A stretch of DNA of 64,000 bases from an uncultured bacterium (GTDB lineage Bacteria > Cyanobacteriota > Vampirovibrionia > Gastranaerophilales > Gastranaerophilaceae): contig CACZFL010000010.1 in the NCBI GenBank assembly GCA_902780525.1, positions 1 through 64,000 on the forward strand, read 5' to 3'. Shown one piece after another: positions 13,114-48,609 of the stretch. How positions within the stretch are numbered: position 1 is the stretch's first letter; the number at the start of each line of letters is the position of its first letter. The translations under genes and the position numbers were made by a program. The notes below the pieces were generated by a model. That model was not told where the DNA came from and searched no databases. It saw only the letters and a program-made list of their open reading frames with translations.

Positions 13114-13314
13114 TTATTTTTGACCGTAACGTTTTTTGAATCTTTCAACACGTCCTTCAGAGTCAAGAATTTTTTGCTGACCTGTGTAGAACGGGTGGCA
13201 GTTTGAACAAATTTCAACTGTCAGATTATCAACAACTGAACCTGTTTCAATTTCGTTACCGCAAACACATTTAATAACGGTTTTCTTATATTCTGGGTGT
13301 AATCCGTCTTTCAT
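13114..13314 (-). CDS. rpmE: 50S ribosomal protein L31 (zinc-binding type)
   Basis: A 66-residue ribosomal protein at the central protuberance. It opens with [16 protein letters not shown], and the four zinc cysteines are intact at 16, 18, 36 and 39 (CVC and [10 protein letters not shown]). It is therefore the zinc-containing C+ form rather than the zinc-free paralogue induced by zinc starvation. GAAGG lies six bases before the ATG. It is monocistronic with its own terminator. Confidence 0.95.
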
Positions 13315-13452: not shown

Positions 13453-15996
13453 CTACATTTTTTTAATTTCTGTAAGTGTCGGATCAAGAAGTCTGCGTCC
13501 TATATTTTCAAAGTTAATTGAAAACAGGGTTTTGGTACCGTATTTAATCATTTTTTCCACAATACCGTTACCGTATTTTGCGTGAACAACCGCATCTCCC
13601 TGCTGAATGGAGTCACTTATTACCATATCTTCCTGCGGTATATCCGCATCATAAACAGGAACAATTGGTGTATCAGAATCTCTTTTTTCAAGAATTTCAG
13701 GACTTCTCTGTGCAGGCTGCTTTTCGGGAATAATACTTTCCTGAGGCTGCTCCAGAATATCACCTGAGTATTCTTCTATAAGACTATCACCTTCATCATC
13801 GCTATTAAGCTCATCTATGAAATCCAAATCAGAATCTGAGATATCACTGTCATCGGACTCTTTTATTGTCGTATAAACTTTATCAACATCTTCTACAATT
13901 TGTCTGTCAACATCCTCATCAATATTTATATTTTCCTCATCGGATATGTCAATAATGATGTCATTTTCACCGCTTTCTTCAGGGTCAAGCTCAACAATAT
14001 CATCTAACTCAGTTGTTATATTATCGTCAGACATCAAATCATCAATACTTATCTCTTCTCTCTCAGAAAGTGAATCATCTGAGATTTCTTCTGAAACAAA
14101 TTCTTCATTAATACCGGAATCAAAATCGGATAATGTTACGGTGTCATCAGATTCTAAGATATCCAAATCTGAGGTCAAAGTTTCTTCCAGACCGATTTCT
14201 TCACTCTGTGGTTCAAGAGTTAATTCTGAAATTGCTTCATTGTCAATTTCGAGATTTTGATTATTATCAACTAAGTCAACGGCTTCAAGACTTTCATCTT
14301 GATATAAAACCGTATCCTTTTCATCAACATCAGTGCTGCCTGAAAAAGAAAGATCAACCGCTTCAGACATTGTATCCTGCTGGTTTAGCTCTTTAATTTC
14401 AGAGTCCTGAGATTCTTCAATTTCATCGTTTTCTAATACAGGAACATTCTCGTCATCGCTGACCGTTTCCTCTGTAATCTCATTGTACTCAGGCTCAATA
14501 ACATCTTCTTCGTCCGGTTCATCTTCTATGACAATATCTACTGATTCATTTTCAGTATCATCAACATCATAGTCAGTGTCATCGTCTTCGTTTTCTTCAT
14601 CAGTAAAAAGATTTACACTTTGTATATCTTCAGTGTCTTCAGAGAATGAGTCAATTATTTCATCTGATTTTTGTTCAATGTTAGCAATAATTTCATCTTT
14701 TGATAAAACATCTTCCTGCCCATCTTCAGCAGTATTTTCATAATTTCCTTCAGAAGCAGGTACATCTTCAATCTGAGTGTCGCAAGCATCTTCTACATAT
14801 TCACTTTCTGCTGCAGGAGAAACAACGTCATCAATAACAACAGCTCTTGATATTACAGGAATATAGTTAATTCCCTCACCTGTTATAAGGTAAGTATCAT
14901 TTTCCATTGACGATAAGAAAGAGTTGTACACATAAAATACTGACTTATTATCAATTGTCGGTTCAATAATAAAATTGTCAAACATTGATTTTATGTCATT
15001 GATGTACCTGTATTTCGGGTTAACAATGAGTGTTGTCGGAATATCTGATTCAGATATAACCATTTTTAAACTTTTCTTGGAAACAATATTTGAGGTCTCC
15101 ATCATTACCTGGTATTTATCAGCATTGAGCTTAGAATAAATATATTCCAGGTAATAATTCTGAAAAGCTGAATCAAGCGATGAAATATCAATTACAGGAT
15201 TTTTTGACTCCAGAATCTTACCAAGGCTGTCAGCTTCTGCTGTATTTTCTGCAAAGTATCCTAATTTGCTCAAGAACGATAATTTATTTTTGAGTACAAA
15301 AAGCCTAAATACATGCTGCTTGTCAACCATATCATCAACGACTGATTTGAATACACCAAACGGCACAAACGGAACAGAGTCAAAGTATTCGCTGATATCA
15401 TCAAATACACTTGCTATCATCTGTCTGCTGTCAGGAGTAGCTTCATTCAAACAAGCCTGACACAGGTACTGTAAAGAAACTTTGTTTAGAGGAAGCTTAA
15501 AATCTTTTCCTGCTGTATATTTTTGAGATTTTACAATTTTGCTTGTATCTATAATAACAGTATTTAACCCCAGATTTTCAAACTGCTTTGTAAGGTTTGA
15601 AACTAACAAGTTGTTGAGGTTAATGTCATCAACGCTTATAAGCATTTTTTTGTTAAATGCAGATAAATCCATAATAACATTACCTGAGTTATCAAGAGTT
15701 TTTCCTGTAATAACCGGTTTTTTAGCATTTATTGAGTTGTTAAGAATATCAAGTGTGAACGGTTTAATTTCAGCATCCTGTTCAGGATCAGTGTTGTCAT
15801 AATTATACAGAAGTTCATCACGCATTATGAACAATATTTTTGCATAAGCAATTCTTATATTATTGACTTTTTTAAGGCTGTTGATTTGGGCGATATAATC
15901 TTTACCCGTGCCAGAAACGCGCACAAATGAAGACAGGTAAATGTTTTCATCAGCCGCTATTTTTATAAAACCGTCTCTTACTTCTGTAATCTTCAT
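13453..15996 (-). CDS. HerA-like pseudo-ATPase with acidic linker and PcrA/UvrD-type Tudor domain
   Basis: An 847-residue protein of unknown role. The ATG at 15994-15996 follows GAGG by seven bases; a TTG directly before it is less likely. Residues 1-75 look like a HAS-type barrel as in HerA ATPases (SSFVRVSGTGKDYIAQI). Residues 110-390 resemble a HerA fold, for example VIDISSLDSAFQNYYLEYIYSKL near residue 270, but the Walker A position reads MLISVDDINLNNLLV with no GKS/T, so ATP hydrolysis is unlikely. Residues 415-790 are a disordered, Asp/Glu-rich linker. The last 55 residues (QQGDAVVHAKYGNGIVEKM through RRLLDPTLTEIKKM) match the C-terminal Tudor domain of PcrA/UvrD, known to bind RNA polymerase. 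The fold assignments are inferred by eye. Confidence 0.7.
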   Translation of the reverse strand: MKITEVRDGFIKIAADENIYLSSFVRVSGTGKDYIAQINSLKKVNNIRIAYAKILFIMRDELLYNYDNTDPEQDAEIKPFTLDILNNSINAKKPVITGKTLDNSGNVIMDLSAFNKKMLISVDDINLNNLLVSNLTKQFENLGLNTVIIDTSKIVKSQKYTAGKDFKLPLNKVSLQYLCQACLNEATPDSRQMIASVFDDISEYFDSVPFVPFGVFKSVVDDMVDKQHVFRLFVLKNKLSFLSKLGYFAENTAEADSLGKILESKNPVIDISSLDSAFQNYYLEYIYSKLNADKYQVMMETSNIVSKKSLKMVISESDIPTTLIVNPKYRYINDIKSMFDNFIIEPTIDNKSVFYVYNSFLSSMENDTYLITGEGINYIPVISRAVVIDDVVSPAAESEYVEDACDTQIEDVPASEGNYENTAEDGQEDVLSKDEIIANIEQKSDEIIDSFSEDTEDIQSVNLFTDEENEDDDTDYDVDDTENESVDIVIEDEPDEEDVIEPEYNEITEETVSDDENVPVLENDEIEESQDSEIKELNQQDTMSEAVDLSFSGSTDVDEKDTVLYQDESLEAVDLVDNNQNLEIDNEAISELTLEPQSEEIGLEETLTSDLDILESDDTVTLSDFDSGINEEFVSEEISDDSLSEREEISIDDLMSDDNITTELDDIVELDPEESGENDIIIDISDEENINIDEDVDRQIVEDVDKVYTTIKESDDSDISDSDLDFIDELNSDDEGDSLIEEYSGDILEQPQESIIPEKQPAQRSPEILEKRDSDTPIVPVYDADIPQEDMVISDSIQQGDAVVHAKYGNGIVEKMIKYGTKTLFSINFENIGRRLLDPTLTEIKKM

Positions 15997-24705: not shown

Positions 24706-25419
24706 CTACTGCTGCAGGTTTATACCTTTTGTGTACATATCATTTGCAACCTTCATTAAATTTAGGCTGGCAATCATTGAAGCATTAAGCCTCATCATCG
24801 TATTAAGTTCGTCATATATATTAACGTTTGAAACTTCTACCGCATTTTGTCTTATACTGTCAGGATCTTTCACCATTTTGGGGTCACCTGATTCGCTGTT
24901 ATAAACAACTTTGTTATTATGTCCCTGCTCGAGTGCCTCCGGATTATCAAACTGTACTATGGGAATAGTACCGATTTTTTCAGGCAGCGAACCTGCTTTA
25001 TCATAGCTCATAACATCACCATTTGGTTTAATCTCGATTCTGTATGAGTTTGGCGGTATCTGAATACCATCGCCTACCATCCAATCATCAACGGTAACAA
25101 GGTATCCGTTTGCACCCAGTTTTAATGAGCCATCACGCGTGTACTGGATTTCACCGTCTTTTGATACAACAGGAATGTATCCTTCACCGTCAATTGCTAT
25201 GTCATACGGATTACTGCTTACACGGATTGAACCCTGAAGAGTATTCTTTCTGATAGCACCGTCAACGTACCCGTCTTCCCTTAATAACTGTTCAAATGCA
25301 ACACTTTTATAACCAATTGTAGTATAGTTGGCCAAATTTGACGCTACGTAGCCTAATTTATCAAATTGCATTGTTGCATTGTTTATACATCTGTTTGTTA
25401 TTGCGGACATATTATACAT
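24706..25419 (-). CDS. flgG: flagellar rod protein FlgG-like
   Basis: A distal-rod/hook family protein of 237 residues. The N-terminal motif VASNLANYTTIGYKSV (residues 25-40), the FlgG/FlgF core DIAIDGEGYIPV (residues 79-90) and a C-terminal SNVNIYDELNTMMRLNASMIASLNLM segment place it in the FlgG/FlgF family. Canonical FlgG is about 260 residues, so the middle domain is trimmed. I call it FlgG over FlgF because it is the second of the pair, but the two may be swapped. AGGAG lies eight bases before the ATG, 10 bases after flgF. Confidence 0.8.
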   Translation of the reverse strand: MYNMSAITNRCINNATMQFDKLGYVASNLANYTTIGYKSVAFEQLLREDGYVDGAIRKNTLQGSIRVSSNPYDIAIDGEGYIPVVSKDGEIQYTRDGSLKLGANGYLVTVDDWMVGDGIQIPPNSYRIEIKPNGDVMSYDKAGSLPEKIGTIPIVQFDNPEALEQGHNNKVVYNSESGDPKMVKDPDSIRQNAVEVSNVNIYDELNTMMRLNASMIASLNLMKVANDMYTKGINLQQ

Positions 25420-25429
25420 AATTTTTCTC

Positions 25430-26128
25430 CTAGCTTACAGAACCGAGCTGACTTATTACTTTTTGCAGATTATTGCTTTCTATTAAGAAAATTTGCCTGT
25501 TTGCTTCAAAATTATTAACAACCGGCTTAACTCTCAAAAACTCGTTCTGCAAAGATACATTTGAATATTCATTATAACCCTGTTTTACATCAGGATTTGT
25601 AACTGCAACACCGTTAGCATCAACAACACCGAGAATTCCTGCATCTGCTAAAGAATTAGTTGTTTTGTCGTAAACACTGACTTTACCTTCAGAATCTACA
25701 ACAACTTTATCAATGTTATCCGGAACTACAGGAAGCTGAATAGGCATACCGGCGTCAGACAAAACAGGAAAATCCTCAAGTGAAAGTAAGTTACCATCTT
25801 TATCCAGTTTAAATCTTCCGTCTCTTGTAAGTTTTACCCCATTTGGAGTCTGAACCTGAAAATAACCTTTATTAGCAAGTGCTATATCAAGCGGATTATT
25901 TGATACCATGATACGCCCGACCTGGTCATCAATCGTTGTTGACAGACCGTGCACTCCAAGGTACTCGGTCATAGAAGAAACTACACCTTCTTTTCTCTGA
26001 TAACCGACTTTATCAAAACCGGCTACGTTTTCGTTAATCATACCTATTAATTGTGTCTGAACGTGCATCGCCCTTATTGATGCGCGCATCCCGTGTTCAC
26101 AAAATCTGACACCGCCATTGATTTGCAT
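25430..26128 (-). CDS. flgF: flagellar rod protein FlgF-like
   Basis: A 232-residue member of the FlgF/FlgG family, the first gene of the flgF-flgG-flgB-flgC operon. It shows the N-terminal rod domain ending in ENVAGFDKVGYQRKE, the core PLDIALANKGYFQVQTPNG near residues 75-93 and a C-terminal helical tail. The N-terminal Asn-x-Ala-Asn motif is altered compared with FlgB and FlgC. GAGG lies nine bases before the ATG. The rod genes are 17 kb away from the fliE-flhA block, so the flagellar genes are scattered. Confidence 0.8.
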   Translation of the reverse strand: MQINGGVRFCEHGMRASIRAMHVQTQLIGMINENVAGFDKVGYQRKEGVVSSMTEYLGVHGLSTTIDDQVGRIMVSNNPLDIALANKGYFQVQTPNGVKLTRDGRFKLDKDGNLLSLEDFPVLSDAGMPIQLPVVPDNIDKVVVDSEGKVSVYDKTTNSLADAGILGVVDANGVAVTNPDVKQGYNEYSNVSLQNEFLRVKPVVNNFEANRQIFLIESNNLQKVISQLGSVS

Positions 26129-32600: not shown

Positions 32601-33989
32601 TTACATTTTAAAAATTTTTCCCGGATTTAATATACCGGCAGGATCTAAAAGCGTCTTTATTTTGCGCATTTGCTCAATAACATCATTGCCTAATATTTTT
32701 TCTGTGTACGATATCTTTTCAATACCGACACCGTGTTCAGCTGAAATAGTACCGCCTAAAGAGATTGCCAATGCATAAATCTCACTTTTTGCACTCATCA
32801 AATTTCTATATTCTTCTTCTTTCTCAAGATTTAACGCAATCTGCGGATGAACGTTACCATCACCAACATGACCTACTATACAAACCTGAAGATTATACTT
32901 ATTGCAAATATCCCTGCAGCCACATACCATTTTTGATAACGCAGACCTTGGAACAATAACATCATCCGTTACAACATCCGGTGCCAACTTTGCAGTAGCA
33001 CCGTAACTTGCACGTCTTGCAGTCCATACAGCTTCCATTTCATCCTTGTTAAATACTGATACAATATCAGAAGCCCCGTTCTCACGCAATGCATTTTCGA
33101 CACGGTTTAACTGAGTTCCCATTGAAGAAGCAAAACCGTCAACTTCTATTAAAAGCATACACTCTTTGTCCGTTTTTAAACCGCTTGGTATAAATCTTTC
33201 AACTGTATTTATTGCATTTTTATCCATAAAATCAATTGTCGAAGGGAAAATTCTTGCCCTGATTATTCCATTGACACCTGATACAGCTTTTTCTATACTG
33301 TCAAAGTAAGCTGTAATAAGGGCATTCGCTTCAGGTTTCGGAATAAGTTTCAGTTCTGCCTCAACAACTACTGCAAGAGTGCCTTCGCTGCCTATTATTA
33401 GCTGATTTAAATGATATCCTACCGCATCTTTTATTGTACCCGAACCCAGACGTAAAAGAGTTCCATCTGCCAAAACAACCTTGAGACTTAATATATAATC
33501 TTTTGTTGTACCATACTTAAATGATTTTGCACCGCCTGAAGACTGAGCAATACTTCCGCCGATTGTTGAAACTTTAAAATTTGCAGGGTCCGGCGGGTAA
33601 AACAACCCGGCAGATTCCGCCATATTTTTAATATCCGCTAATACAACACCCGGCTGCACTCTCATGGTCATGTCATCAGGGTTAAATTCCAATATTTTAT
33701 TCATTTTGGAAAAGTTTAAAACGATTCCACCTTCAGTACAAACACAGGAACCCACCATATTTGTCCCGGCACCTCTTGATATAATAGGGATATTATGAAT
33801 ATTTGCATATTTTACTATATTTTGAACATCTTCTATCGTTTCAGCAAAAACAACAATATCAGGAAGTTTTGTTGACTTGCTCAAGTTTGCTGAATCTTCG
33901 GCGTAACAATATCTCTCCTCTTCTGTGAAAAGGATATTGTCTTTTGCTAATACTTTTTTTAAATCATTTATACTATTTTTCAACAACAT
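32601..33989 (-). CDS. glcD: FAD-linked oxidase, GlcD/D-lactate dehydrogenase family
   Basis: A 462-residue flavoprotein of the VAO/PCMH family oxidising D-2-hydroxy acids such as glycolate or D-lactate. Visible are the FAD-binding segment IPIISRGAGTNMVGSC near residues 67-82, STIGGSIAQSSGGAKSFKYG near 140-159, and the C-terminal VGHVGDGNVHPQIALN and GTISAEHGVGIEK blocks. It lacks a membrane anchor. The partner subunits GlcE/GlcF are not adjacent. It overlaps the end of the giant coiled-coil gene by 17 bases, an odd pairing with no functional explanation. Confidence 0.9.
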   Translation of the reverse strand: MLLKNSINDLKKVLAKDNILFTEEERYCYAEDSANLSKSTKLPDIVVFAETIEDVQNIVKYANIHNIPIISRGAGTNMVGSCVCTEGGIVLNFSKMNKILEFNPDDMTMRVQPGVVLADIKNMAESAGLFYPPDPANFKVSTIGGSIAQSSGGAKSFKYGTTKDYILSLKVVLADGTLLRLGSGTIKDAVGYHLNQLIIGSEGTLAVVVEAELKLIPKPEANALITAYFDSIEKAVSGVNGIIRARIFPSTIDFMDKNAINTVERFIPSGLKTDKECMLLIEVDGFASSMGTQLNRVENALRENGASDIVSVFNKDEMEAVWTARRASYGATAKLAPDVVTDDVIVPRSALSKMVCGCRDICNKYNLQVCIVGHVGDGNVHPQIALNLEKEEEYRNLMSAKSEIYALAISLGGTISAEHGVGIEKISYTEKILGNDVIEQMRKIKTLLDPAGILNPGKIFKM

Positions 33990-36900
33990 TTGATGCTATT
34001 TTTTCAATGCTCTTATTTAACTTAGCGAGCTGTTTATCCATTCCGCCGACTTTTTTTGTAAGCTGAGCCGTATCTTTATTATCCACCAAAGATACAACTT
34101 CTTCCAGTTTTGTTTCCAAAGAACTTATTTTATCTTGCTGGGATACAAATTTTTCTTCCATAACTGATAAAAATTTATTCAGAGCGTCTTCTATCGGTTT
34201 TGAATCTGCTTTTGATTTTTTAGAATTTACGTTGGACGCTACAATTATTTTATCCAGTTTAGCTTCCAATGAAGAAATGCGTTTTGCCTGTTTGTCAAAA
34301 ACCTGCTCCAGTGCATTTACAAGTTCTGCAGAATTTTCATTATCCTGAGATTCAGCTCTTAAATCCTCAAGCATAACTCTAATCTGACCTATATCGTCAA
34401 GTGTTTCGACCTTGTCAGAAATTGATGCAAGCTGCTCACCTGCTTTATCAACCCATTCTGCAAGATATTCAAACACCTGGTTAAATACCTGGTTTGTCTG
34501 CGCTCCGTTTTGTATCATCGTATTAATTGCTGCAAGCTTGTAATCAAGTTTATCAATGCCGGATTCGTGTGCAAAATTTCTTGTACGTTCGTCTAAATCG
34601 TCTATTACAAGCTTAAAGTCCTGTAAATTATCCTGAAGAGTTTTATATGATTCGTCAGATGTAAGAATAAGTTTGTTTGTACGTGTGCTTATACTTACTA
34701 TGTCTTCTGCAAGAGTACTGAACTCTTTTTTAAACTCATCTGCCTCAAATTTCGGCATTTCAGACTTTATTGTTTCAACTATTTGGTAAATACCGTTTGT
34801 TGAGCTTATCAGTTCCTCAAATTCTTTTGATTTATTATCGGCTTTCATTTCATTCATTGCAATACGTAGATTTGCAATATCCGATTCCAAATCCTGGAAG
34901 CTGTAAACATAGTCAATCTCACCATCAGAAGACATAATTGAAGTTAATTTTTCATTTATCAAATCAATATCTTCTTTTAATTCATCAAGCTTATTATCAA
35001 CTATTGCAACATTTTCTTTTACATCACCGATATCACCTGTCGTTGTTACTATATGACTTAATATTGTAATAAGTTCAGAGTGTTTTTCCTGTATAAAATC
35101 AAGTATTTCTTCCTGCTCGGTAATGAACGATATCTGGTTGAAAATATCGATAAATTGAGTAATTATATCAGATTTCAAATCTCCAAGCTGCTTAGTTATT
35201 GAATTAACTGAATCATCCTGAACGCCAAGCTTATCTGATATTTCTGCCAATGATTTAGTTATATTGTGTTTTACAAGCGTATTCATTTCCATTATTTCAG
35301 GAAGACTTGTACCGCAAACTTCGTTTATATCTTCAAGAAATCCTAACTGATCATTAACAAGATTTTCCAATCCTCTTATCTGATTGCGTACAGACTCATG
35401 GAACGCTTCATCAAAAGATTTATTCATTATTTGTGCTTTTAAATCTGCAAAGCTTAATTTTAACTCATCAACGGATTTATTGATGCCGCCTACAAGAGTT
35501 TTAAGATTATTATTGATTTCGTCTTTTGAATCAGTAAATCTTACCACTAGCTCTGTTACAGATGTTGAGATTTGTTCAAAAGATTTATTATACTGAGTTG
35601 AAAGAACCTTAACTTCTTCGTATTTGTCAACAATTGTGTCTGTAAACTTCTTATCAAGTAATCCGAATTTTTCATCAAGTTTTTCTGAAACATTTGCTTT
35701 TATAAATTCCTGAAGCTGAGAGTTTAGCTTTTCTGACATTGAATTAATCAGAATTTCGTTTGTTGTTCGAAGATCAGATATACTATCCGCAAACACACTC
35801 GCCTGAAGAAGCTTATTAATATTTTCAGTTGTATCATCAACTGTTTTAACAAGCTCTGACCTCAAAGAATCAATTTTTGCATCAAGAACAGTTGCATCGG
35901 TTTTTATATCCAGATATGATTTTAAATCATTAACCGCATCTATAATGTATCCTGAAATACTTCCTTCAATAGATGTTGAAAGTCTGGTTAAATCATCTTT
36001 TTGAGCATCTTTAAGTGAATTCAAATCTTCAGTCAATTCCCCAAGAAGTATATCTGTTTCTTTTTCTATTTCAGTTTTAAGAAGTTTGGAATGTTCCTCT
36101 ACAAGCTTTACTATTACTTCTTTGCAAACATTTGAATTTTGCTTAATATTTTCAAGTTGATTTTCTAACTCAAAAGTTTTTTCCTCAAGAGATTTTCCTA
36201 TATTATCATATCCTTCGGCAGCTGAAGTATTAAGTAAATCTGCAGATGAAAGAATATCTGCCTTCACATTATCTTTCAATTCATCAGCTATCTTATTAAA
36301 CTCAGCCTGCATTTCCTTTAACTGAGCTTGCTGTATGCTGAGCCTTGTTAACTCATCTTTATCAAGACGTTCATTTATTGATAATAAATCATTTCTGAAT
36401 TCTGAAAGTCCTGCAGATATATCTTCTGACAGTTTTGAATTGGAATTTGTATATTGTGTAACAAATGTAAGCATATTCTCGTCAAAGAATATTCGCAGCT
36501 TTTCATTTATATTATCAAATCCCGGTTTAAGTTCCTCTTCAATTATTGAATGTAATTTTTCTCCTAACTGAGCAAAGCTTGAGTCATATTTACCGCTAAC
36601 AGCAGCAAACCCGGGTTTTATTTCATTCTCAACTATTGAATGTAATCCATTTTCGATGCGTACAAATTTTGAATCATTATTTTCATTTACGGAAGCAAAT
36701 CCCGGTTTAAGTTCTTCTTCAATTATTGAATGTAACTTTTCTTCTATGCTTGCAAATTTAGAGTTACTATTTTCATTTACTGAAGCAAATTCCGGTTTAA
36801 GCTCTTCTATTACTGAATGTAACTTAAGCTCTTCTATTACTGAATGTAACTTTTCTTCTATGCTTGCAAACTTAGAATCATTATTTTCATTTATGGAAAC

Positions 36901-39900
36901 AAATCCGGGCTTAAGCTCCTCGTCTATTATTGCATTTAATTTTTCTTCATACAAAGACGTTTTTGCATCAAATTTTTCATCTGAGTTTATTAATGCAGTC
37001 TGAATATCAGATACTTTAGTATTTAACTCATTATCAAATTCACGTACAGTTGAAATTACTTTTTGCACACCAGATGAAATATCATCAAATGCAGAATTAA
37101 CTTCCTGCGCCTGAATATCGAGATTTGAATCAACAAACTTCGCCACGTCATCTAGCTGCGCTCTGATTGTATCAACCAATACGTTATTCTGACGTTCCAC
37201 TCTTTCAATGAATTCTCCGAGTTTAACTTTTAAATCACTGTAGTCAGCAGATGTAGCATCTACGTTTTCACGTATCATTTCTTTGAGATGATTACCGATA
37301 TCCTCTAACTGAATAACGGCATTCTTTCCTTGTTTATCAAGTGTATCTGCCAAAACATTATTAAGCTCTAAAGCACGCTCTTTGATAAATTCTGCCTGCT
37401 CGTTATTCTTATCCTGAAGCCCTTCAAAGAGATCGGAAATTTGTACTTTATACTGTTCCAGCTCTTCTGATAACGCCTGGCTCATTTGAGCTGATGCACC
37501 GTTTAATTCTTTTTTAATACGATCACCCAATGTATCTGTAGCCTGATTCATAACATCTACAAGCATGAGATTCAGAGATTCAAAACTGCCTTCTATTATT
37601 GATATCTGACGTGCCAAATCTTCATCAACCATTTTATCAACGTCGGTAAGTTTTCTCTTTAGCATATCAAAATCTTTGCGTAACTCATCAGAATTTTCCT
37701 TCATTCTTGCCGCAGACTTTTCATCAAAGCTATCGAGTGAAGCATTGAGAGAAGAAAAATTTTCGAGCATTTTTGTAAGAGTACTTGTTAAAGAGTTTGT
37801 TGTTTCTTTTGATAAAACATTTACGGAATTTTCAAGTTTGGTAAATCCGCCTACAACATCCAAAACTTTGTTATCTATTTCGGATAAGACATCTGCAGTA
37901 TTTGTTTTTATTGAATCTACAGAGTTATAAACTTCAGTAGTAAAATCATTTTTGACAAAATCAATAACTTCTTTGTTGGCTCCTTCTATTTTTAAAGAAG
38001 TACCTGAAACCATCTCTGACAAGCCAAGAATATTTAGTTTTAATGCCTCTATAATACCTGCAATTTCTGCTTTTAGTTCATTTTTTAAATCAACAGTCTG
38101 TTGGAAAGCTTTAGCTTGTATGGTTTCAGCATTAAACTTTAACTCGCTCATATTATCGGCATTTTCACAAGTAAAATCTCTTTTAAACTCAGTGACTTTA
38201 TCTATAAGTGACTGTTTTAAAGCCTCCATTTTAGAGTCAAACGCCTCTTTAAGCATATCTGCGGATGACATTATCTCAGCAACACGACCCGTTACACCGT
38301 CATTATTACTTTTGATAGTTTCACTTAATATACCGACATCACCTTTGATTGCATCAAGTTTATCATATGCGGCTTTCATATCCTGCTGCATTGATTTTTT
38401 GACATCTGTAACAGATGAGGTGATTTTTTGCAGTCTTCCTTCGGACTCTGCTCCCATAAGTTTTAAATCTTCGTCAATATGTTCTTTAATGGCGTCAACT
38501 ACATCACGAACGCTGTCTATATAATTCAGATTACTGTCCTGAATATATCTTACGGTTTGTTCAAGTTTTTCATCAAACGCCTGAGTACTTGTTTCTTTTG
38601 ATGTACTTACATAAGATAAGATATCTACAATTGATGCGGATATATTTGAAAGAACTTCATCAAACGATTTAACTGCTTCTGCCTGAGCAAACTTAATCTG
38701 ATCTTCTACGCTGTCTATTTTGCTGACAAGAAGTTCGTATTTGCCAAACAAATCTTTAGTAAGAGTCTCTGATAAATCTGATTCAGAACCTTCAATTGCT
38801 GTAGATAAATCTTCTTTTACGGCATACAACTCAGCCTTTACATCCTTTACTGCATCAACGAAGTCCAGCGCAAGAAGTTTATTTACAGCCTCTGTAAGTT
38901 CTTTGTACTCTTTTTTGGTATTACCAAACTCAATAGCATTTGAGTCCAGTTTGTAATCAATACCGTCTGTAATATCTTTGATATTTGATATTTGCTCAAA
39001 AATATTAGCAGAAGAACCTGATACATAATCTTCCTGCTTTTCAAGAGATGTCTTCAGACTGTTTTCAAAAATAGCAAGCCTGTCAGTAATATTTGAGAAT
39101 ATTGCATTATTTGCAGAAACATTGTTTTCATCTAACTGAGCAACAACTTCTTTTAATCCGGATAAACCCTCGCTTACTTCTTCAAAACTTTTTTCGCACA
39201 ATCCTGAAATAGCAACGTGAGATTCTTTAATTCTTGTATTTAAAACCTCAGCATTAGAAGAAATTTCCTTAATGGTTCTGGTAACATCAGCTTCTAATAG
39301 CTGAGATAATTTATCGGTTTCTGTTGCAAATTTTTCTTTTACATCTTCACCGATTTTTTCCATTTCTTCGGATATACTGTTAAAACCTGATGTCATATCT
39401 AAAGATTTAAGGTCACCGCCCAATTTGTTTATCTTTTCAAGAGCAGAATCAAGAGAACCTCTAAGTTGTTCTGAACCTTTTGAAATTTCACCGAAAACTT
39501 CCTGCAAAGATTTTTTAAATTCTTCAAATTCGCTGTTATCGGAAATAACTTTTATTGAACCCTCTAGTTCTGAAAGTTTTTCCAGTACAGCTGACTTTAC
39601 TCCGTCATCTTTATCTTCAATCTCTGCTTTTAAACCGGCAATTATATTTACGGAAGCATCAATTTTTTCCGCCAGAGTATCCATTTTGTATGATTTTTGA
39701 ACAAGTGAGTCAACAAGGTTTGCAAGTTCCTGACTGTTAGCAGCAAGGTCAACTATACCTTTTTTAATACTTGTTGTATCCTCTTGTGTTGCAAGTCCTT
39801 CGAATGCCTGCTCAAAGTTTGTATTTTTTTTGTCGATAAGCTGTATTGCAGAAAGAATAGTATTTGAAGATGTTATAATATCATTTATTTGTTCAGTAAA

Positions 39901-40485
39901 ACCTTTGATAGCTTCCGATTGATCAACCTCGGATATTGTTTTCAGAACTGTTTTAAAGTTTTCATTAAGACTTATAACAATAGAGTCAAAACCGTTGTTA
40001 ACTTTTTCTATATCATTTCTGACTGTCGATATGCTCTTTATGATATCCTTTTTCTGACTGTCATCCGAGCGCATTGCATCAAGTCTTAGGGTAATATCAT
40101 TAAGTCTTTCTTTTTGGTCAACAACTTCTCTTGAGAATACAGACAAGTTGGTTGCAACAATATCAAAAAGTTCCTGGAGTTCTGTCTTTTTAACAGCATC
40201 TGTACTGTTTTTGAGAAGATTTGAAAACAAGGATTCAATTGCGCCGAATTTAGAGATTAAAACATCATGCCTTTCATCCAAATTTTTCTTTAACTCGGAT
40301 AAAAATGCTTTGATTAAATCAATATCCTCTTCTGTATTAATTTTATCCAGCTTAGAGTTAATGCCTTCAAGCAGTTTATCAACGTCTGAAGTATTCAAAA
40401 TACCCTGCGCCCTGATTGAGTTTAACAAAGTTTTTATCGTATCAAAATTATCTTTTATATCCGAAAAATCATTTGGTTCTGCCAT
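33973..40485 (-). CDS. 2,170-residue coiled-coil protein with internal repeats
   Basis: A very long, acidic protein of unknown function. It has no signal peptide, membrane helix, nucleotide-binding motif or globular domain that I can see. Almost the whole length has heptad-like hydrophobic spacing with abundant Lys, Glu, Asp, Ser and Asn and very few Cys, so it should form extended coiled coil. A region near residues 1180-1330 holds about five degenerate 32-33-residue repeats (core SKFASIEEKLHSIIEEELKPGF). A structural, spacer or cytoskeletal role is plausible but unproven. It is the first gene of a six-gene same-strand run ending in the AsmA-like gene. Confidence 0.8.
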   Translation of the reverse strand: MAEPNDFSDIKDNFDTIKTLLNSIRAQGILNTSDVDKLLEGINSKLDKINTEEDIDLIKAFLSELKKNLDERHDVLISKFGAIESLFSNLLKNSTDAVKKTELQELFDIVATNLSVFSREVVDQKERLNDITLRLDAMRSDDSQKKDIIKSISTVRNDIEKVNNGFDSIVISLNENFKTVLKTISEVDQSEAIKGFTEQINDIITSSNTILSAIQLIDKKNTNFEQAFEGLATQEDTTSIKKGIVDLAANSQELANLVDSLVQKSYKMDTLAEKIDASVNIIAGLKAEIEDKDDGVKSAVLEKLSELEGSIKVISDNSEFEEFKKSLQEVFGEISKGSEQLRGSLDSALEKINKLGGDLKSLDMTSGFNSISEEMEKIGEDVKEKFATETDKLSQLLEADVTRTIKEISSNAEVLNTRIKESHVAISGLCEKSFEEVSEGLSGLKEVVAQLDENNVSANNAIFSNITDRLAIFENSLKTSLEKQEDYVSGSSANIFEQISNIKDITDGIDYKLDSNAIEFGNTKKEYKELTEAVNKLLALDFVDAVKDVKAELYAVKEDLSTAIEGSESDLSETLTKDLFGKYELLVSKIDSVEDQIKFAQAEAVKSFDEVLSNISASIVDILSYVSTSKETSTQAFDEKLEQTVRYIQDSNLNYIDSVRDVVDAIKEHIDEDLKLMGAESEGRLQKITSSVTDVKKSMQQDMKAAYDKLDAIKGDVGILSETIKSNNDGVTGRVAEIMSSADMLKEAFDSKMEALKQSLIDKVTEFKRDFTCENADNMSELKFNAETIQAKAFQQTVDLKNELKAEIAGIIEALKLNILGLSEMVSGTSLKIEGANKEVIDFVKNDFTTEVYNSVDSIKTNTADVLSEIDNKVLDVVGGFTKLENSVNVLSKETTNSLTSTLTKMLENFSSLNASLDSFDEKSAARMKENSDELRKDFDMLKRKLTDVDKMVDEDLARQISIIEGSFESLNLMLVDVMNQATDTLGDRIKKELNGASAQMSQALSEELEQYKVQISDLFEGLQDKNNEQAEFIKERALELNNVLADTLDKQGKNAVIQLEDIGNHLKEMIRENVDATSADYSDLKVKLGEFIERVERQNNVLVDTIRAQLDDVAKFVDSNLDIQAQEVNSAFDDISSGVQKVISTVREFDNELNTKVSDIQTALINSDEKFDAKTSLYEEKLNAIIDEELKPGFVSINENNDSKFASIEEKLHSVIEELKLHSVIEELKPEFASVNENSNSKFASIEEKLHSIIEEELKPGFASVNENNDSKFVRIENGLHSIVENEIKPGFAAVSGKYDSSFAQLGEKLHSIIEEELKPGFDNINEKLRIFFDENMLTFVTQYTNSNSKLSEDISAGLSEFRNDLLSINERLDKDELTRLSIQQAQLKEMQAEFNKIADELKDNVKADILSSADLLNTSAAEGYDNIGKSLEEKTFELENQLENIKQNSNVCKEVIVKLVEEHSKLLKTEIEKETDILLGELTEDLNSLKDAQKDDLTRLSTSIEGSISGYIIDAVNDLKSYLDIKTDATVLDAKIDSLRSELVKTVDDTTENINKLLQASVFADSISDLRTTNEILINSMSEKLNSQLQEFIKANVSEKLDEKFGLLDKKFTDTIVDKYEEVKVLSTQYNKSFEQISTSVTELVVRFTDSKDEINNNLKTLVGGINKSVDELKLSFADLKAQIMNKSFDEAFHESVRNQIRGLENLVNDQLGFLEDINEVCGTSLPEIMEMNTLVKHNITKSLAEISDKLGVQDDSVNSITKQLGDLKSDIITQFIDIFNQISFITEQEEILDFIQEKHSELITILSHIVTTTGDIGDVKENVAIVDNKLDELKEDIDLINEKLTSIMSSDGEIDYVYSFQDLESDIANLRIAMNEMKADNKSKEFEELISSTNGIYQIVETIKSEMPKFEADEFKKEFSTLAEDIVSISTRTNKLILTSDESYKTLQDNLQDFKLVIDDLDERTRNFAHESGIDKLDYKLAAINTMIQNGAQTNQVFNQVFEYLAEWVDKAGEQLASISDKVETLDDIGQIRVMLEDLRAESQDNENSAELVNALEQVFDKQAKRISSLEAKLDKIIVASNVNSKKSKADSKPIEDALNKFLSVMEEKFVSQQDKISSLETKLEEVVSLVDNKDTAQLTKKVGGMDKQLAKLNKSIEKIASNVVEK
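36797..36850 (-). repeat. perfect 27-bp tandem duplication inside the coiled-coil gene
   Basis: Bases 36797-36823 and 36824-36850 are identical. The duplication repeats nine residues (LHSVIEELK) in frame within the 32-33-residue repeat region. Perfect identity implies a recent event and a likely site of length variation between strains. Confidence 0.9.
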
Positions 40486-42978: not shown

Positions 42979-45063
42979 TTAAACACTTTCTCCTATTGTA
43001 TCAACAGCTTCGACTTTGATATCAGTTATAAGCTCTGAGTAAGAAATTACAACAATTGTCGGAATATGTCTTTCAAGAAGCTGATACAAGGGTAAACGTA
43101 TTCTAGGAGAGCAGAGTATTACAGGCTGCTGACCAATTTGCTGATGGGCGCGCATTAAAGTCATTGCTGTTGATTCTATCAAATCCTGAACCTGCATCGG
43201 GTTAAGCAAAAACATCGTTCCGAGCTCTGTTCTTTGACAGCTGTCATCAAGTGTTTTTTCCCATTCCGGTGAAAGTGTAAGAGCATACAAAATATGGTCC
43301 CTGTCAACATTACTCAAACAGATTTGTCTTCCAAGAGCCGCTCTCAGACGTTCTGAAAGGATATCAGGCTCTTTTGAAAATCTTGCGTAATCGCACAGAC
43401 GTTCAAATACAAATATAATATCTTTTATAGAAACTTTTTCTCTTATGAGGTTTACGAAAATCTTTCTCAAATCAGAAGTAGAAATAATAGCCGGAACAAG
43501 GTCATTAACAAGCGTCGGGTCTTGAGAACGAACAAGTTCCATAAGTTTAAGGACGTCAGTTTTTGTCATAACTTCGTCAACGTGTTTTCTTACGCATTCC
43601 TGAAGATGAGTAACAAGAACATCCGTAGCATCAACAGCAGTAACGTTTTTGGTTTCTTTTGCATCCTGCTGAGAAATCCAGTATGCCTGAGTTTGATAAG
43701 TCGGGTCAACGCCAACAATTGCATCTTCCGGAATTGTTTTCTTAACGGAATCCCACTGGTCGGCAATAACCATATATTTGCCGGGATATACATAACCTGA
43801 TGCAACTACATTGTTTCTGATTGCGATTACATACTCATTAGCTTCCAAGGCTGAAGAGTCCATAATACGTATATTAGGTAAGATATAACCGAGTTCGTCC
43901 GTTACTCTTTGACGCAGGGCAGCTATTTTTGCAAGTAACTGACCTTCCTGATCAGGGTCAGCAATTACCAACAGACCGGCACCGACCTGTAAACTCAATA
44001 CGTCAACACCAAGCCTTTCGTACATCTTATTCGGGTTAACCAAATCCTGCATATTTTGTCTTACACTTTCCAATTGTCCTAATTGAGATTGAACATCGGC
44101 GTTAACCAATACTGAGAATCCTGCAAGAGCAAGAATTATAGTAAATATCAGAAATGGTAAGAACGGTAAACCTGTTATAGGACAAGTTACCGTAATTAAG
44201 CCTAAGAAAAGCGCTGCAAAGAACAAAGAGTACGGCTTTGCCATAATCTGAGTAGTTAAATCACCACCTAATGACATATTACCGGCAGAAGCACGTGTCA
44301 TGACAATACCGGCTGCAATTGACATCAATAATGACGGAAGCTGTGATGCTAAACCGTCACCAATTGTTAATACTGTATATTTGCTGACTGCATCTGCTAT
44401 CGGCATCTGATTCATAAGACAACCGATACACAAACCGCCGATAATGTTTATTAATACAATAATAATACCTGCGATAGTATCACCTTTAACAAACTTCATA
44501 GAACCGTCCATTGAACCGAACAAACTTGATTCTCTTTGCAAATCTTCACGCTTTTTAACAGCTTCTTCCGGAGATATCAGACCTGCGTTAAAGTCGGCAT
44601 CAATAGTCATTTGTTTACCGGGCATTGCATCTAAGGCAAAACGAGCAGCAACTTCTGCGATACGTTCGGCACCCTTTGTAATTACCATAAATTGGACAAC
44701 CGTAATAATTAAGAAAATTACGCCACCTACTACCATATTTCCACCTGTTACGAAGGTTCCAAATGCATGAATAACTTCACCTGCATCACCTTTTGCAAGA
44801 ATAAGACGGGTTGATGCAATAGAAAGGCACAGCCTGAACATCGTTCCGATAAGGATAATTGACGGAAATGCAGCAAGTTCAAGAGGTTTCTGGACATACA
44901 ATGATATCATCAAGAGAACAATACCGAGGGTTATATTAAGTGAAATAGAAAAATTAATAACCCAGTTTGGCATCTCTATAATAAGGATTAATATTAAGAC
45001 CATTACAAAGAGTGCCAATAATATTTCTGATATAGGTTTGCTCTGTGATTGTTCGCCTGCCAT
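42979..45063 (-). CDS. flhA: flagellar export gate protein FlhA
   Basis: The inner-membrane export-gate nonamer of the flagellar type III secretion system. The 694 residues match the family. There are eight predicted membrane helices in residues 15-330, with the FHIPEP signature region RLCLSIASTRLIL near residue 80 and the ALDAMPGKQMTIDADFNAGLI loop near 145-165. A cytoplasmic domain follows, with VLVTHLQECVRKHVDEVMTK near 480 and the C-terminal LSPEWEKTLDD segment. It overlaps the fliH stop by TAATG. No FlhB, FliP, FliQ or FliR genes lie nearby. Confidence 0.95.
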   Translation of the reverse strand: MAGEQSQSKPISEILLALFVMVLILILIIEMPNWVINFSISLNITLGIVLLMISLYVQKPLELAAFPSIILIGTMFRLCLSIASTRLILAKGDAGEVIHAFGTFVTGGNMVVGGVIFLIITVVQFMVITKGAERIAEVAARFALDAMPGKQMTIDADFNAGLISPEEAVKKREDLQRESSLFGSMDGSMKFVKGDTIAGIIIVLINIIGGLCIGCLMNQMPIADAVSKYTVLTIGDGLASQLPSLLMSIAAGIVMTRASAGNMSLGGDLTTQIMAKPYSLFFAALFLGLITVTCPITGLPFLPFLIFTIILALAGFSVLVNADVQSQLGQLESVRQNMQDLVNPNKMYERLGVDVLSLQVGAGLLVIADPDQEGQLLAKIAALRQRVTDELGYILPNIRIMDSSALEANEYVIAIRNNVVASGYVYPGKYMVIADQWDSVKKTIPEDAIVGVDPTYQTQAYWISQQDAKETKNVTAVDATDVLVTHLQECVRKHVDEVMTKTDVLKLMELVRSQDPTLVNDLVPAIISTSDLRKIFVNLIREKVSIKDIIFVFERLCDYARFSKEPDILSERLRAALGRQICLSNVDRDHILYALTLSPEWEKTLDDSCQRTELGTMFLLNPMQVQDLIESTAMTLMRAHQQIGQQPVILCSPRIRLPLYQLLERHIPTIVVISYSELITDIKVEAVDTIGESV

Positions 45064-45848
45064 TACATTCCCTCTAAAGCCTTTTTAATAATTTCTAACT
45101 GAGTGTCAATGGAAGCATCAACTATTCCGTTTGCAGTCTGGAAAATACAACCGCCTTCTTCAACTGAAGGATCAGCAATAACACTAATTTTTGCCTCAAT
45201 TCCGTACTGATAGGTAACGGTAGGCAAAGTGTCCTTTACAAACTGCGCACTCTGCGGACGAACCCTAATATTAATTTTTGGTTCATTCTTAGATATTGTT
45301 TTTAGAACATCCGTTATAGTATTTATCAGAACCTGTGGATCTGACTCAACTTCTTTCTTTATAATTTTTTTTGCAATATCAATACTGATTTCAAGAATAT
45401 CAGGAGCAATATATTCAAACACTTCTTTTGTTGCACCTAGGAATTTTGTCATATTTGTTCTCAGGTTTTCAATATCAGTATTTGCCTGATTAATTCCATT
45501 TCTGTAACCTTCTTCAAAGGCTGATTTTTTAATATTTTCAGCTTCTTCCTGTGCTCGAGAAACAAGGTTGCGGTCATCAATACGGCGATATCCTCTTCTT
45601 CTCGTTCCTCTCCTTCTTTCCTGGCGCTGATTAAAATCAATATTTTGTATATCAAATAAATCAATCTCCGGTTCTGGTGAAATAGCGGATTCCGTTGATT
45701 GAATATTTTCAAAATCATTACTTACAGAATTTTGGAGTGGAACCTCTTCATGAATTTCAGCAGCTGAATACTCATCCGGCTTATCTACAGCCTGATGCAC
45801 AGATTTATTTTCCTCCCACTGCTTAATTTTATTCTTCTTAATAATCAT
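45063..45848 (-). CDS. fliH: flagellar assembly protein FliH
   Basis: A 261-residue stator of the export ATPase. Residues 1-90 are polar and low-complexity, with an Arg-rich RRGTRRRGYRR stretch. A helical region with ESAFEEGYRNGINQANTDI-like periodicity follows, and the C-terminal FliH/V-ATPase-E-type domain ends in GIVDASIDTQLEIIKKALEGM. The start lacks a Shine-Dalgarno sequence but follows the fliG-like stop by only 12 bases. FliH normally precedes the ATPase gene fliI; here flhA follows instead, coupled by TAATG. Confidence 0.85.
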   Translation of the reverse strand: MIIKKNKIKQWEENKSVHQAVDKPDEYSAAEIHEEVPLQNSVSNDFENIQSTESAISPEPEIDLFDIQNIDFNQRQERRRGTRRRGYRRIDDRNLVSRAQEEAENIKKSAFEEGYRNGINQANTDIENLRTNMTKFLGATKEVFEYIAPDILEISIDIAKKIIKKEVESDPQVLINTITDVLKTISKNEPKINIRVRPQSAQFVKDTLPTVTYQYGIEAKISVIADPSVEEGGCIFQTANGIVDASIDTQLEIIKKALEGM

Positions 45849-45860
45849 GATTTACAAATA

Positions 45861-46901
45861 TTATATACTATCCTCCACATATTGCGCAACAATATCAGCG
45901 ACCTGTAACGGCAGTCCCGAATATTCACCGTCATATGCCTGCGAAATAAATCTTTTTACGAGCGGACGTTCGTTTTTAATAATTTTCTCTATTTTTTCGC
46001 GCGGATTTGCACGGTATAAACGAAGTAAATCGCCCATAACATTTTCCTGTGTAAGCTTCCTCTTTGCGGGGATATAGTTTTTCATTTCCTTAAGACTGTT
46101 TAACAATATATCACCGTCTATCTGGGATTCCAGGTTAGCCATACCCATATAGTTTAATATCAGCTTATTGTCACCATCATCAAAGTTTGACATAATAGCT
46201 TTTGCTTTATCAGGAGAAAGAATCCTCATAACGAGCGCCAAAGACATTAATCTCATATTTCTTACTGTAACTGTACCGGCTGTTGCTTCCAGCTCTTTTT
46301 CTATTCTACGCTGCTTTCTTTCTTCTTCACGCCGTTTTTGAGCCTGTTTTCTTCTGTTATCTGTTTCTTCAAGCTGTGCTTCTTTTTGCTTTATCTGTTC
46401 CTGAGCAGCTTGTTTTGCCATTTCATCAATATTAGATTGATTTTCGGCAAGCTCTTTTACTTCTTCATCTATTACACCGCGCTTTTCAAGATCCTCAATG
46501 CACTTTTTATATACTTTAACAACGTGCATTTCAACAGCCTGAAGCAGTTGTTCCTGCTGAATATTTCTTATTACGCCCTGCTTTGCAACTTCAAAGATGG
46601 TAAATGCAATTTTTTGCATAATGGTATCCCAGTATTCACGGTTAATCCCTGAATGAATTAAGTCGATAGATTTATGGAATGACCATTCTGCGATAATTTG
46701 TGTAATAAAAACGGCTTGCTCCGGAGTTAGTTGAAGGCTTTCATCATTATAAATAGCTTCTCCAGCCATAAGGGTAAAATTACCGAGAGTATTTACTATA
46801 TATTCCTGTTCATCAGGCTGCAAATCTTTCGGAACAAGTTCTTTTGCCTGTTCCGCCATAGACTGAGCAAATACTTTATAATCGAAGCCGTCAATAGCCA
46901 T
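45861..46901 (-). CDS. divergent FliG-like protein in the fliF-fliH interval
   Basis: A 346-residue protein at the place where fliG is expected, between fliF and fliH. The N-terminal 160 residues are helical and unfamiliar. A Lys/Glu/Arg/Gln-rich coiled coil spans residues 160-205. The C-terminal part has FliG-like helical repeats: ALVMRILSPDKAKAIMSNF near residue 222 resembles the FliG N-domain, and NVMGDLLRLYRANPREKIEKII near 288 resembles the repeated FliG motif. I do not see the charged torque helix (a MFxFEDL-like stretch) of the FliG C-domain. It may be a strongly remodelled FliG. AAAGGA lies eight bases before the ATG. Confidence 0.6.
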   Translation of the reverse strand: MAIDGFDYKVFAQSMAEQAKELVPKDLQPDEQEYIVNTLGNFTLMAGEAIYNDESLQLTPEQAVFITQIIAEWSFHKSIDLIHSGINREYWDTIMQKIAFTIFEVAKQGVIRNIQQEQLLQAVEMHVVKVYKKCIEDLEKRGVIDEEVKELAENQSNIDEMAKQAAQEQIKQKEAQLEETDNRRKQAQKRREEERKQRRIEKELEATAGTVTVRNMRLMSLALVMRILSPDKAKAIMSNFDDGDNKLILNYMGMANLESQIDGDILLNSLKEMKNYIPAKRKLTQENVMGDLLRLYRANPREKIEKIIKNERPLVKRFISQAYDGEYSGLPLQVADIVAQYVEDSI

Positions 46902-46941
46902 TTATTTTCCTTTATATTTATCAGACCGGGTTTATTCTTCC

Positions 46942-48609
46942 CTAGCCCTCTATCCAGCTGCGGATTCTTTCCCCAGCTTCAGTGTCATCGGTTCCGTCGA
47001 TTTCACGTTTTAATTCTCTTAATGCCTCTCTGATTTCGGCAGCTGAAACAGGAATTGCCGCAGGTTTGCTTTGCTGTTCCAAAAGTCCCTGTTGAAGCTG
47101 ATTTTGATTTTTAATCAGATTTGCAGCATTAACGCTTAAGTCTTTTATTTGTTTTTCCTGGGATTCATTTTGTTCTCTGAGCTTTATGAGTTCTTCTTCC
47201 TGAGCTTCTTTTGCTGCTTTGATTTTGTTAGTCAAAACATTATGACCGAATAATAGTCCGAAGAACAGAAGAACTATTGCCAACCACCAAGGGTTACCGT
47301 GAGAAGCTTTAATCGGAGCTTTAACATTCTTATCACCTGCCATAAATGGATCAAGACTGTCAGCAAATGCGATTGTTACATTTTCTGCCTTTGCTTTTGG
47401 GCTTGCTGCGTGAGCAACAAGGTCTTTTAATTCTTCAAGCGTAAGTTCTACAGGCAACGCATCTTTTTCAAGGGTAACTGCGATAGAGATTTCTTCAACT
47501 GCACCCGGTGCTATATATTCGTTTGTCTGGACTTTTGTTACACCATATTGAACTTCACGTGCAGTACGCTGATAGCTTCTGTTTTGCGTTGAATCAGAGC
47601 TTCCTGCAGGTAAACCATTTGGAAGATATACACTTACAGCATTTGTATTTTTATTGTTATCAGTTGTATGGTCGCCTAACCCTTCAGAGAAAACCTGCTC
47701 ATTAACGGCTGTTTTGCTTTCAGGGTCATAAGATATTGTGAATTTTTCAACAGGAGCTTGTTTAAGGAATGTAGAAACAGTTGCAACATACTTGCCGCTT
47801 CCTACTAATCTGTTCAGCTGAGCCTGTACTTTTTCCTGCATATATTTATCATTCTGTTGTATTCTTTCAATCATCTCTGATTGAGCATCAACCATACTGT
47901 TATAAACATGTCCGTTAGTATCGGTTATAGAAATGTTTGAAGCGGTAAGACCTGAAACACTTCCCAAAAGAAGGTTAGAAACTGCTTTAATTGTACTCAT
48001 ACTTAAAGTCTGCCCAACAGAAACAGTAAGCTGAACTGTTGCTGTTACAGGCTTTTGGTTTTGAGAAAACATTGTCTGTTCCGGAATTGATATAAACACG
48101 GAGGCATCCTGAATTCCGTCAATTCTTTTTATAAGACGGGCAAGTTCACCGTTCATTGCACGAACAAGTCTTATTTTTTTATCTTCTTTTGTTGAAGTAA
48201 AATCACCTTTATCAAAGATTTCAAGACCGACGTTTTGGTCATAAAGTCCGCTTTCTACAATTACCATAATTGCACGATCGCGCTGCTCGGTTGTACATTT
48301 TCTCATACCCGGAGTACAGTCACCTTTTTTCAGTCTTAAAACTGATTTTGTACCGTCAACCAAACGTGCGGCAACAATGTTATTTTTAGCTAACAGGGCT
48401 TGAATTTCGAGGGCTTTTCCCATGTTATCCGTTGTTAATAAATCAACATCCTCTTTTAAAGGTTCTTTACTAACATCAACACCATCTTTATCAGCTTTAT
48501 TAGATGCTGCAATTGTACCGCTTATAATAAATATTATAAGAAGTAAGACAATTGCACCTGCAACTGACGCCAGAAGAACTTTATTTTCAAGTAATTTTTT
48601 AAAATCCAT
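46942..48609 (-). CDS. fliF: flagellar MS-ring protein FliF
   Basis: The 555-residue MS-ring protein of the inner membrane. It has an N-terminal membrane helix (residues 12-34), ring-building motifs with NIVAARLVDG near residue 75 and IDGIQDASVFISIPEQTMF near 160-178, then the GLTASNISITDTNG block. A second membrane helix lies near residues 443-462 (WWLAIVLLFFGLLFG). The cytoplasmic tail is coiled and ends in AGERIRSWIEG, like the canonical FliG-binding tail. It has two Cys in a CTPGMRKC loop near residue 100, unusual for FliF. GCAGGA lies before the ATG. It starts 47 bases after fliE. Confidence 0.95.
   Translation of the reverse strand: MDFKKLLENKVLLASVAGAIVLLLIIFIISGTIAASNKADKDGVDVSKEPLKEDVDLLTTDNMGKALEIQALLAKNNIVAARLVDGTKSVLRLKKGDCTPGMRKCTTEQRDRAIMVIVESGLYDQNVGLEIFDKGDFTSTKEDKKIRLVRAMNGELARLIKRIDGIQDASVFISIPEQTMFSQNQKPVTATVQLTVSVGQTLSMSTIKAVSNLLLGSVSGLTASNISITDTNGHVYNSMVDAQSEMIERIQQNDKYMQEKVQAQLNRLVGSGKYVATVSTFLKQAPVEKFTISYDPESKTAVNEQVFSEGLGDHTTDNNKNTNAVSVYLPNGLPAGSSDSTQNRSYQRTAREVQYGVTKVQTNEYIAPGAVEEISIAVTLEKDALPVELTLEELKDLVAHAASPKAKAENVTIAFADSLDPFMAGDKNVKAPIKASHGNPWWLAIVLLFFGLLFGHNVLTNKIKAAKEAQEEELIKLREQNESQEKQIKDLSVNAANLIKNQNQLQQGLLEQQSKPAAIPVSAAEIREALRELKREIDGTDDTEAGERIRSWIEG

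Follow-up and report, generated by a model that had tools for sequence, protein, structure and literature searches.

HerA is known from DNA repair and phage defence as a motor that pumps DNA and binds its partners by its HAS barrel, as in HerA-NurA, and the Tudor domain of UvrD helicases docks on RNA polymerase and repair proteins. In B. subtilis, the Tudor of PcrA recognises a TGE hairpin found in the SI1 region of RpoB and in UvrB (PMC8318588), and Mfd and CarD bind RNA polymerase at its beta1 region (PMC5397179). PcrA-type Tudors are already known on other proteins such as the mycobacterial Y-family polymerase DinX, where a PcrA-like Tudor (DUF3553) is flanked by disorder and RNA polymerase docking has been proposed (PMC6511836). 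Degenerate ATPases of the FtsK/HerA type are likewise known, as in the DUF domain of EccC in type VII secretion, which keeps a degenerate fold of this superfamily as a structural part (PMC11154593). Within the literature searched, we found no described protein that combines HerA, an acidic linker and a Tudor, just as the initial annotation of the locus described here had supposed; literature linking HerA and Tudor led to BREX, where the two lie on different proteins. As far as this literature shows, the combination of a dead HerA with a Tudor, near-universal in a bacterial order, is new.

The window is the whole stretch of 64,000 nucleotides that was analysed, from an uncultured member of the Gastranaerophilaceae. 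Its minus strand carries an open reading frame that runs from an ATG at 15996 to a last sense codon at 13456 and a stop codon at 13453-13455, encoding a protein of 847 aa (pI ca. 4; 5.1 for the N-terminal domain) with the following parts:

13453-15996 (stop codon included), minus strand: whole gene of 847 aa, pseudo-HerA, acidic linker and Tudor; open reading frame with homologues in 55 of 57 relatives
15751-15996, minus strand: N-terminal beta barrel of seven strands, equivalent to the HerA HAS barrel (residues 1-82; AlphaFold2 model, VIA alignment to HerA)
14821-15750, minus strand: catalytically degenerate RecA-like core of HerA type, with a helical insertion (residues 83-392; fold, DUF87 matches in homologues, HMM alignment to 4d2i)
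15607-15630, minus strand: P-loop position, reading DDINLNNL (residues 123-130; HMM alignment to SsoHerA, column counts in 55 and 27 sequences, 48 homologues)
15088-15108, minus strand: expected place of Walker B, reading VMMETSN, at the end of strand 295-300 (residues 297-303; AlphaFold2 secondary structure and column counts, equivalence by fold)
15697-15705, minus strand: decoy "GKT" within a beta strand that corresponds to HerA "iriGsl" (residues 98-100; AlphaFold2 model, HMM alignment)
13609-14820, minus strand: acidic linker, predicted to be intrinsically disordered (residues 393-796; composition, pLDDT <50 over most of it)
13804-13917, minus strand: conserved linker motif VDKVYTT...ISDSDLDFIDELN (residues 694-731; identity, alignment, two predicted short helices)
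13651-13662, minus strand: short motif VPVY preceding the Tudor (residues 779-782; two alignments)
13456-13608, minus strand: PcrA/UvrD-type Tudor of five strands (residues 797-847; PF21196 in 30 of 30 members, PDB profile matches, pLDDT ca. 90)

NCBIfam and PADLOC searches assigned this protein to no family, and Pfam detected only the C-terminal Tudor on it, below the cut-off (18.7 versus 23.9 bits), so that the HerA call of the initial annotation came without family support and had to be tested. An AlphaFold2 model of residues 1-392, built from 55 natural sequences, has a pLDDT of 91.5 and a pTM of 0.86. Its leading Foldseek matches in the PDB are all HerA (best E 1.5e-15), and VIA-align superposes model residues 1-390 on Sulfolobus HerA with a Z of 24.5 and an rmsd of 3.6 over 372 residues, with VirB4 and FtsK-type motors scoring below HerA. 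The family profile independently agrees with the fold by matching Sulfolobus HerA (SsoHerA, 4d2i; E 1.6e-7). Pfam DUF87 (PF01935, "Helicase HerA, central domain") is found in 7 of 30 members at E <=0.1 (best 6.5e-9), several of which exceed its curated cut-off, with every match beginning beyond the P-loop segment of the model. The window protein itself gives no PF01935 match, and the profile match is thus one at the level of the family only. No SF1 helicase core is present in the protein, which has a HerA-like N-terminal domain instead. The HAS barrel and ATPase fold first read from the sequence were borne out by all of these comparisons, which returned a HerA fold for the N-terminal domain, a Tudor for the C-terminus and no unrelated fold.

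Over its whole length the N-terminal domain thus resembles HerA translocases (4d2i; SIR2-HerA, DUF4297-HerA, HerA-NurA) in its HAS barrel, its RecA-like core with helical insertion and its profile-level sequence similarity. Unlike them, pseudo-HerA lacks Walker A, a recognisable D-E pair of Walker B and a NurA or effector neighbour, and it has the 400-residue acidic linker in place of the final part of HerA, plus the Tudor. Nothing in the folded domain corresponds to the C-terminal stretch of HerA past chain residue ca. 465, an absence that may weaken ring formation. The EccC domain differs in being a membrane secretion component within a chain of several ATPases, with neither Tudor nor acidic linker, and DinX, which shares the presence of a PcrA-type Tudor on a non-helicase, is an active polymerase as opposed to the dead ATPase seen here. 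Compared to PcrA and UvrD themselves, the Tudor agrees in family (PF21196), five strands, partner-binding residues, a preceding disordered linker and its place at the extreme C-terminus, but it is attached to a HerA-like fold and not to an SF1 helicase, and it ends in GRRLLDP where the UvrD of the order has GKKAMDA. Fold, profile and composition confirm the overall layout of HerA-like half, acidic run and Tudor tail, and the assignment of the protein as a putatively dead HerA core joined to a UvrD-type docking domain is well supported by sequence and model together.

In the HMM profile alignment, the HerA sequence ATGSGKSN falls onto residues 123-130 (DDINLNNL-type sequence) with the length of the loop kept. 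Columns 125, 127, 128 and 129 are not G, G, K and S/T, so that both glycines, the lysine and the Ser/Thr are not kept across 55 sequences, and a profile search for homologues with a retained motif found no true Walker A at the aligned place among 48. The Walker A loop had been described as missing; its motif is indeed lost, but the loop was replaced at equal length. Going by the alignments, the change in the P-loop is a substitution and not a deletion, and the other ATPase motifs are gone too: no D-E pair is conserved at strand 295-300, the place of Walker B expected by fold equivalence, where the strand of the window protein ends in E-T-S. A cryptic P-loop elsewhere was considered and rejected, given that the sole Walker-A-like string in the 48 homologues, APVIIGKT of one protein (L002), corresponds to residues 93-100 of the window protein, in a beta strand that precedes the true position of the P-loop, and is not conserved; the same holds for the "GKT" at residues 98-100, which falls in this upstream strand and is not conserved outside the genus. 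Nucleotide binding by an unusual site or a role as DNA-binding translocase would fit with the lysine found at the Walker A lysine column in 10 of 27 sequences of a diverse set; in other families of the order, a lysine is frequent at this column but the glycines are missing. The loss throughout of the glycines and the Ser/Thr of the P-loop, the lack of a D-E pair where Walker B is expected and the strong acidity of the protein, its N-terminal domain included, make this reading highly improbable. Pseudo-HerA works unlike HerA and should not be classed as an active HerA.

The absence of a P-loop extends to homologues in a second family of the class (f9). In a wider profile search of this class, the family was detected in 193 of 289 genomes, comprising 15/15 of the genus, 170/173 other members of the family, 5/5 other members of the order and three f9 genomes. 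The gene is thus carried by 185 of the 188 genomes of the window's family, in a single copy per genome in these scans, and one of the three lacking it (G304) has a contig-end fragment that fits its C-terminus. Named records with homologues are Candidatus Gastranaerophilales or Melainabacteria from animal guts. Being single-copy and near-core in the order, this is a gene of Gastranaerophilales and not a decaying pseudogene. The three f9 proteins (L200, L201 and L202) show the same order of parts, with barrel, HerA-like core without P-loop, long linker and a Tudor above the Pfam cut-off (26.6 bits). Conservation across the order and recurrence in a second family of the class place the architecture far beyond chance, and because the loss of the P-loop is common to both families it seems to be older than their split, barring two separate losses or a transfer of the gene from one family to the other. 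Weak f9 matches to ATPases of 400 aa were set aside as other HerA/FtsK-type motors with intact P-loops that do not belong to the pseudo-HerA family. No member of the family was found in other Cyanobacteriota in a phylum-wide sample. Intact HerA is present in Cyanobacteriia and one class-level genome (G056), and the family profile does not score these proteins as near relatives. The search in cyanobacteria gave no closely related intact HerA as a parent, though the lack of a stronger match does not amount to exclusion.

A profile search detected no intact HerA in this genome, and NurA, of which the initial annotation had noted no neighbouring gene, is not detected genome-wide either and present in just one of 37 genomes (this one and 36 relatives). 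An M16 peptidase gene and uppS lie upstream in the window and rpmE downstream. Within the genus, the gene lies next to those of an M16 and an M14 peptidase and to uppS; other genera of the family have nadD-yqeK in this place, other families of the order comM and the gene of a 153-aa protein of no recognised family, and f9 has ileS and rarA. These differing housekeeping genes give no shared functional clue or repair context across genera and families, and together with the absence of NurA and intact HerA they argue against a repair motor and against a defence HerA. An anti-phage HerA system was accordingly rejected, with no match to PADLOC defence models and a single-copy near-core gene in a housekeeping context. 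A pseudo-ATPase that still uses its HAS barrel to bring in an effector, NurA-like or unrelated, in the manner of the HerA of repair and defence complexes, would explain why a HAS-like barrel is retained; yet the near-absence of NurA, the lack of a PADLOC match and of a conserved effector or nuclease neighbour at the loci compared, and a barrel identity of 47% in the genus that is not above that of the core make it very unlikely.

Several features of the neighbourhood are recorded here in their own right. In other families of the order, the gene of the 153-aa protein immediately precedes that of pseudo-HerA in the same orientation (L029:2962-3420, with equivalents in L021, L026, L030 and L034), and its product is a possible functional partner. 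In the window, a small open reading frame reading like ribosomal protein L31 (rpmE; 13114-13314, minus strand) lies just downstream on the same strand, and rpsT-like genes follow in other genera; the pseudo-HerA gene may share a transcript with genes for ribosomal proteins.

The acidic linker spans about 400 residues, somewhat more than the 370 or so Asp/Glu-rich residues originally reported, with 37% D+E, 3% K+R and a net charge of ca. -131. It is predicted by AlphaFold2 to be disordered (pLDDT mostly <50), and its composition is kept while its sequence is not. Residues 694-731, including DLDFIDELN, stand out with a mean identity of 68% in the genus versus 25% for the rest of the linker and with predicted helices at 694-709 and 721-731; this region is likely a binding site for a partner. 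DLDFIDELN is an acidic-aromatic motif within an otherwise unconserved acidic linker (window 13804-13917). Closer to the C-terminus, P780 and Y782 of the VPVY motif are invariant in the alignments.

The Tudor is the most conserved part of the protein (84% identity in the genus, compared with ca. 50% in the core and 25% in the linker), and its PcrA/UvrD type, proposed from the outset, holds for residues 797-847. PF21196 was matched by all 30 members scanned (best 5.9e-7), the Tudor profile matches the Tudor structures of UvrD1, UvrD and PcrA in the PDB (best E 9.7e-8), and the model has five strands with a pLDDT of ca. 90. H681, W684, K712 and L714 of G. stearothermophilus PcrA are needed for RNA polymerase binding, which is reduced by their mutation (PMC5397179). 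They correspond to H805, Y808, R834 or R835 and L836 or L837, all invariant or nearly so; the last two equivalents shift by one between alignments, with a basic residue and a leucine in either register, and the exchanges of W684 for Tyr and K712 for R are conservative. A tree built on 50 Tudor columns is consistent with the fused Tudor having arisen once, a grouping seen in 58% of bootstraps.

Searching the genome with the strict helicase-interaction motif of PMC8318588, we found the TGE motif IDHLTGEIL in UvrB and no match to an SI1-type TGE motif in RpoB. UvrB is therefore at least as good a candidate partner as RpoB. RpoB keeps the common beta1 sequence EIKEQEVYIGDIP, so that RNA polymerase, from these sequences, appears a plausible Tudor partner. 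A non-ATPase tether specific for RNA polymerase, with the Tudor on the beta subunit (at beta1 like CarD and Mfd or at a diverged TGE loop) and pseudo-HerA recruiting another factor, would draw on this beta1 sequence in the Mfd/CarD region, on the retained PcrA residues and on weak matches to the CarD/TRCF RID profile in 24 of 30 members. These matches fall below the profile's cut-off, however, RpoB lacks the SI1-type motif, and PcrA binds SI1 and not the Mfd site (PMC8318588), and we regard such a tether as conceivable but on the unlikely side.

The true UvrD is a separate gene in this genome (G000:C5) that keeps its own Tudor, encoded at G000:C5:163238-163381 (L057), and each genome examined with both genes has two Tudor proteins, UvrD and pseudo-HerA. 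In the tree, a long branch leads to the UvrD Tudors of the order, and those of the window's genus have lost the W684-equivalent aromatic residue to Leu (HEKLG), where the fused Tudor keeps Tyr. Pseudo-HerA could hence be a regulator whose better-conserved Tudor competes with UvrD for UvrB or RNA polymerase, restraining or redirecting the helicase, much as RNA polymerase and UvrB compete for a single Tudor surface in B. subtilis (PMC8318588). Against this, the two Tudors share only 31% identity in the genus and differ in their conserved tails (GRRLLDP versus GKKAMDA), which means that their partners may differ, and we consider this regulator unlikely.

Our tentative preference, held with a little less than even confidence, is that pseudo-HerA is a catalytically dead HerA-family protein turned into a non-motor scaffold that docks via its Tudor on UvrB or RNA polymerase. 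The pseudo-HerA domain would still oligomerise, perhaps as a HerA-like ring, and display several Tudor domains on long arms, which an acidic tether with a net charge of ca. -130 would hold extended and off the DNA. Targets of these arms would be TGE-hairpin proteins that act in transcription and nucleotide excision repair, with UvrB the most likely and RNA polymerase a possible one; the arms would either gather these partners or compete with UvrD for them. A Tudor is retained also by UvrD, and docking is in consequence not unique to pseudo-HerA, which speaks against the scaffold, as do the missing SI1-type motif of RpoB and neighbourhoods that vary between genera without a link to repair. A bolder version of it, in which the HerA ring minus its motor forms a multivalent transcription-repair hub whose several Tudor arms bring UvrB and RNA polymerase together or compete for them, replacing the docking by a UvrD whose own Tudor has drifted in the order, strikes us as quite doubtful.

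A whole bacterial order thus keeps, as a near-core gene, a motor-dead HerA joined to a UvrD docking domain. If docking is real, the non-motor scaffold would represent a new way of organising transcription-coupled repair and a clean example of a hexameric ATPase turned scaffold, and it would give a testable function to an uncultured gut-bacterial gene that curated family models leave unnamed.

Elsewhere in the window, an open reading frame of 2170 aa on the minus strand (33976-40485) is of no recognised nature. The lineage consists mostly of non-motile gut bacteria in which flagellar genes are unexpected; by eye, open reading frames at 24709-26128 and 42982-48609 (minus strand) resemble flagellar rod/hook proteins, FlhA, FliG and FliF.
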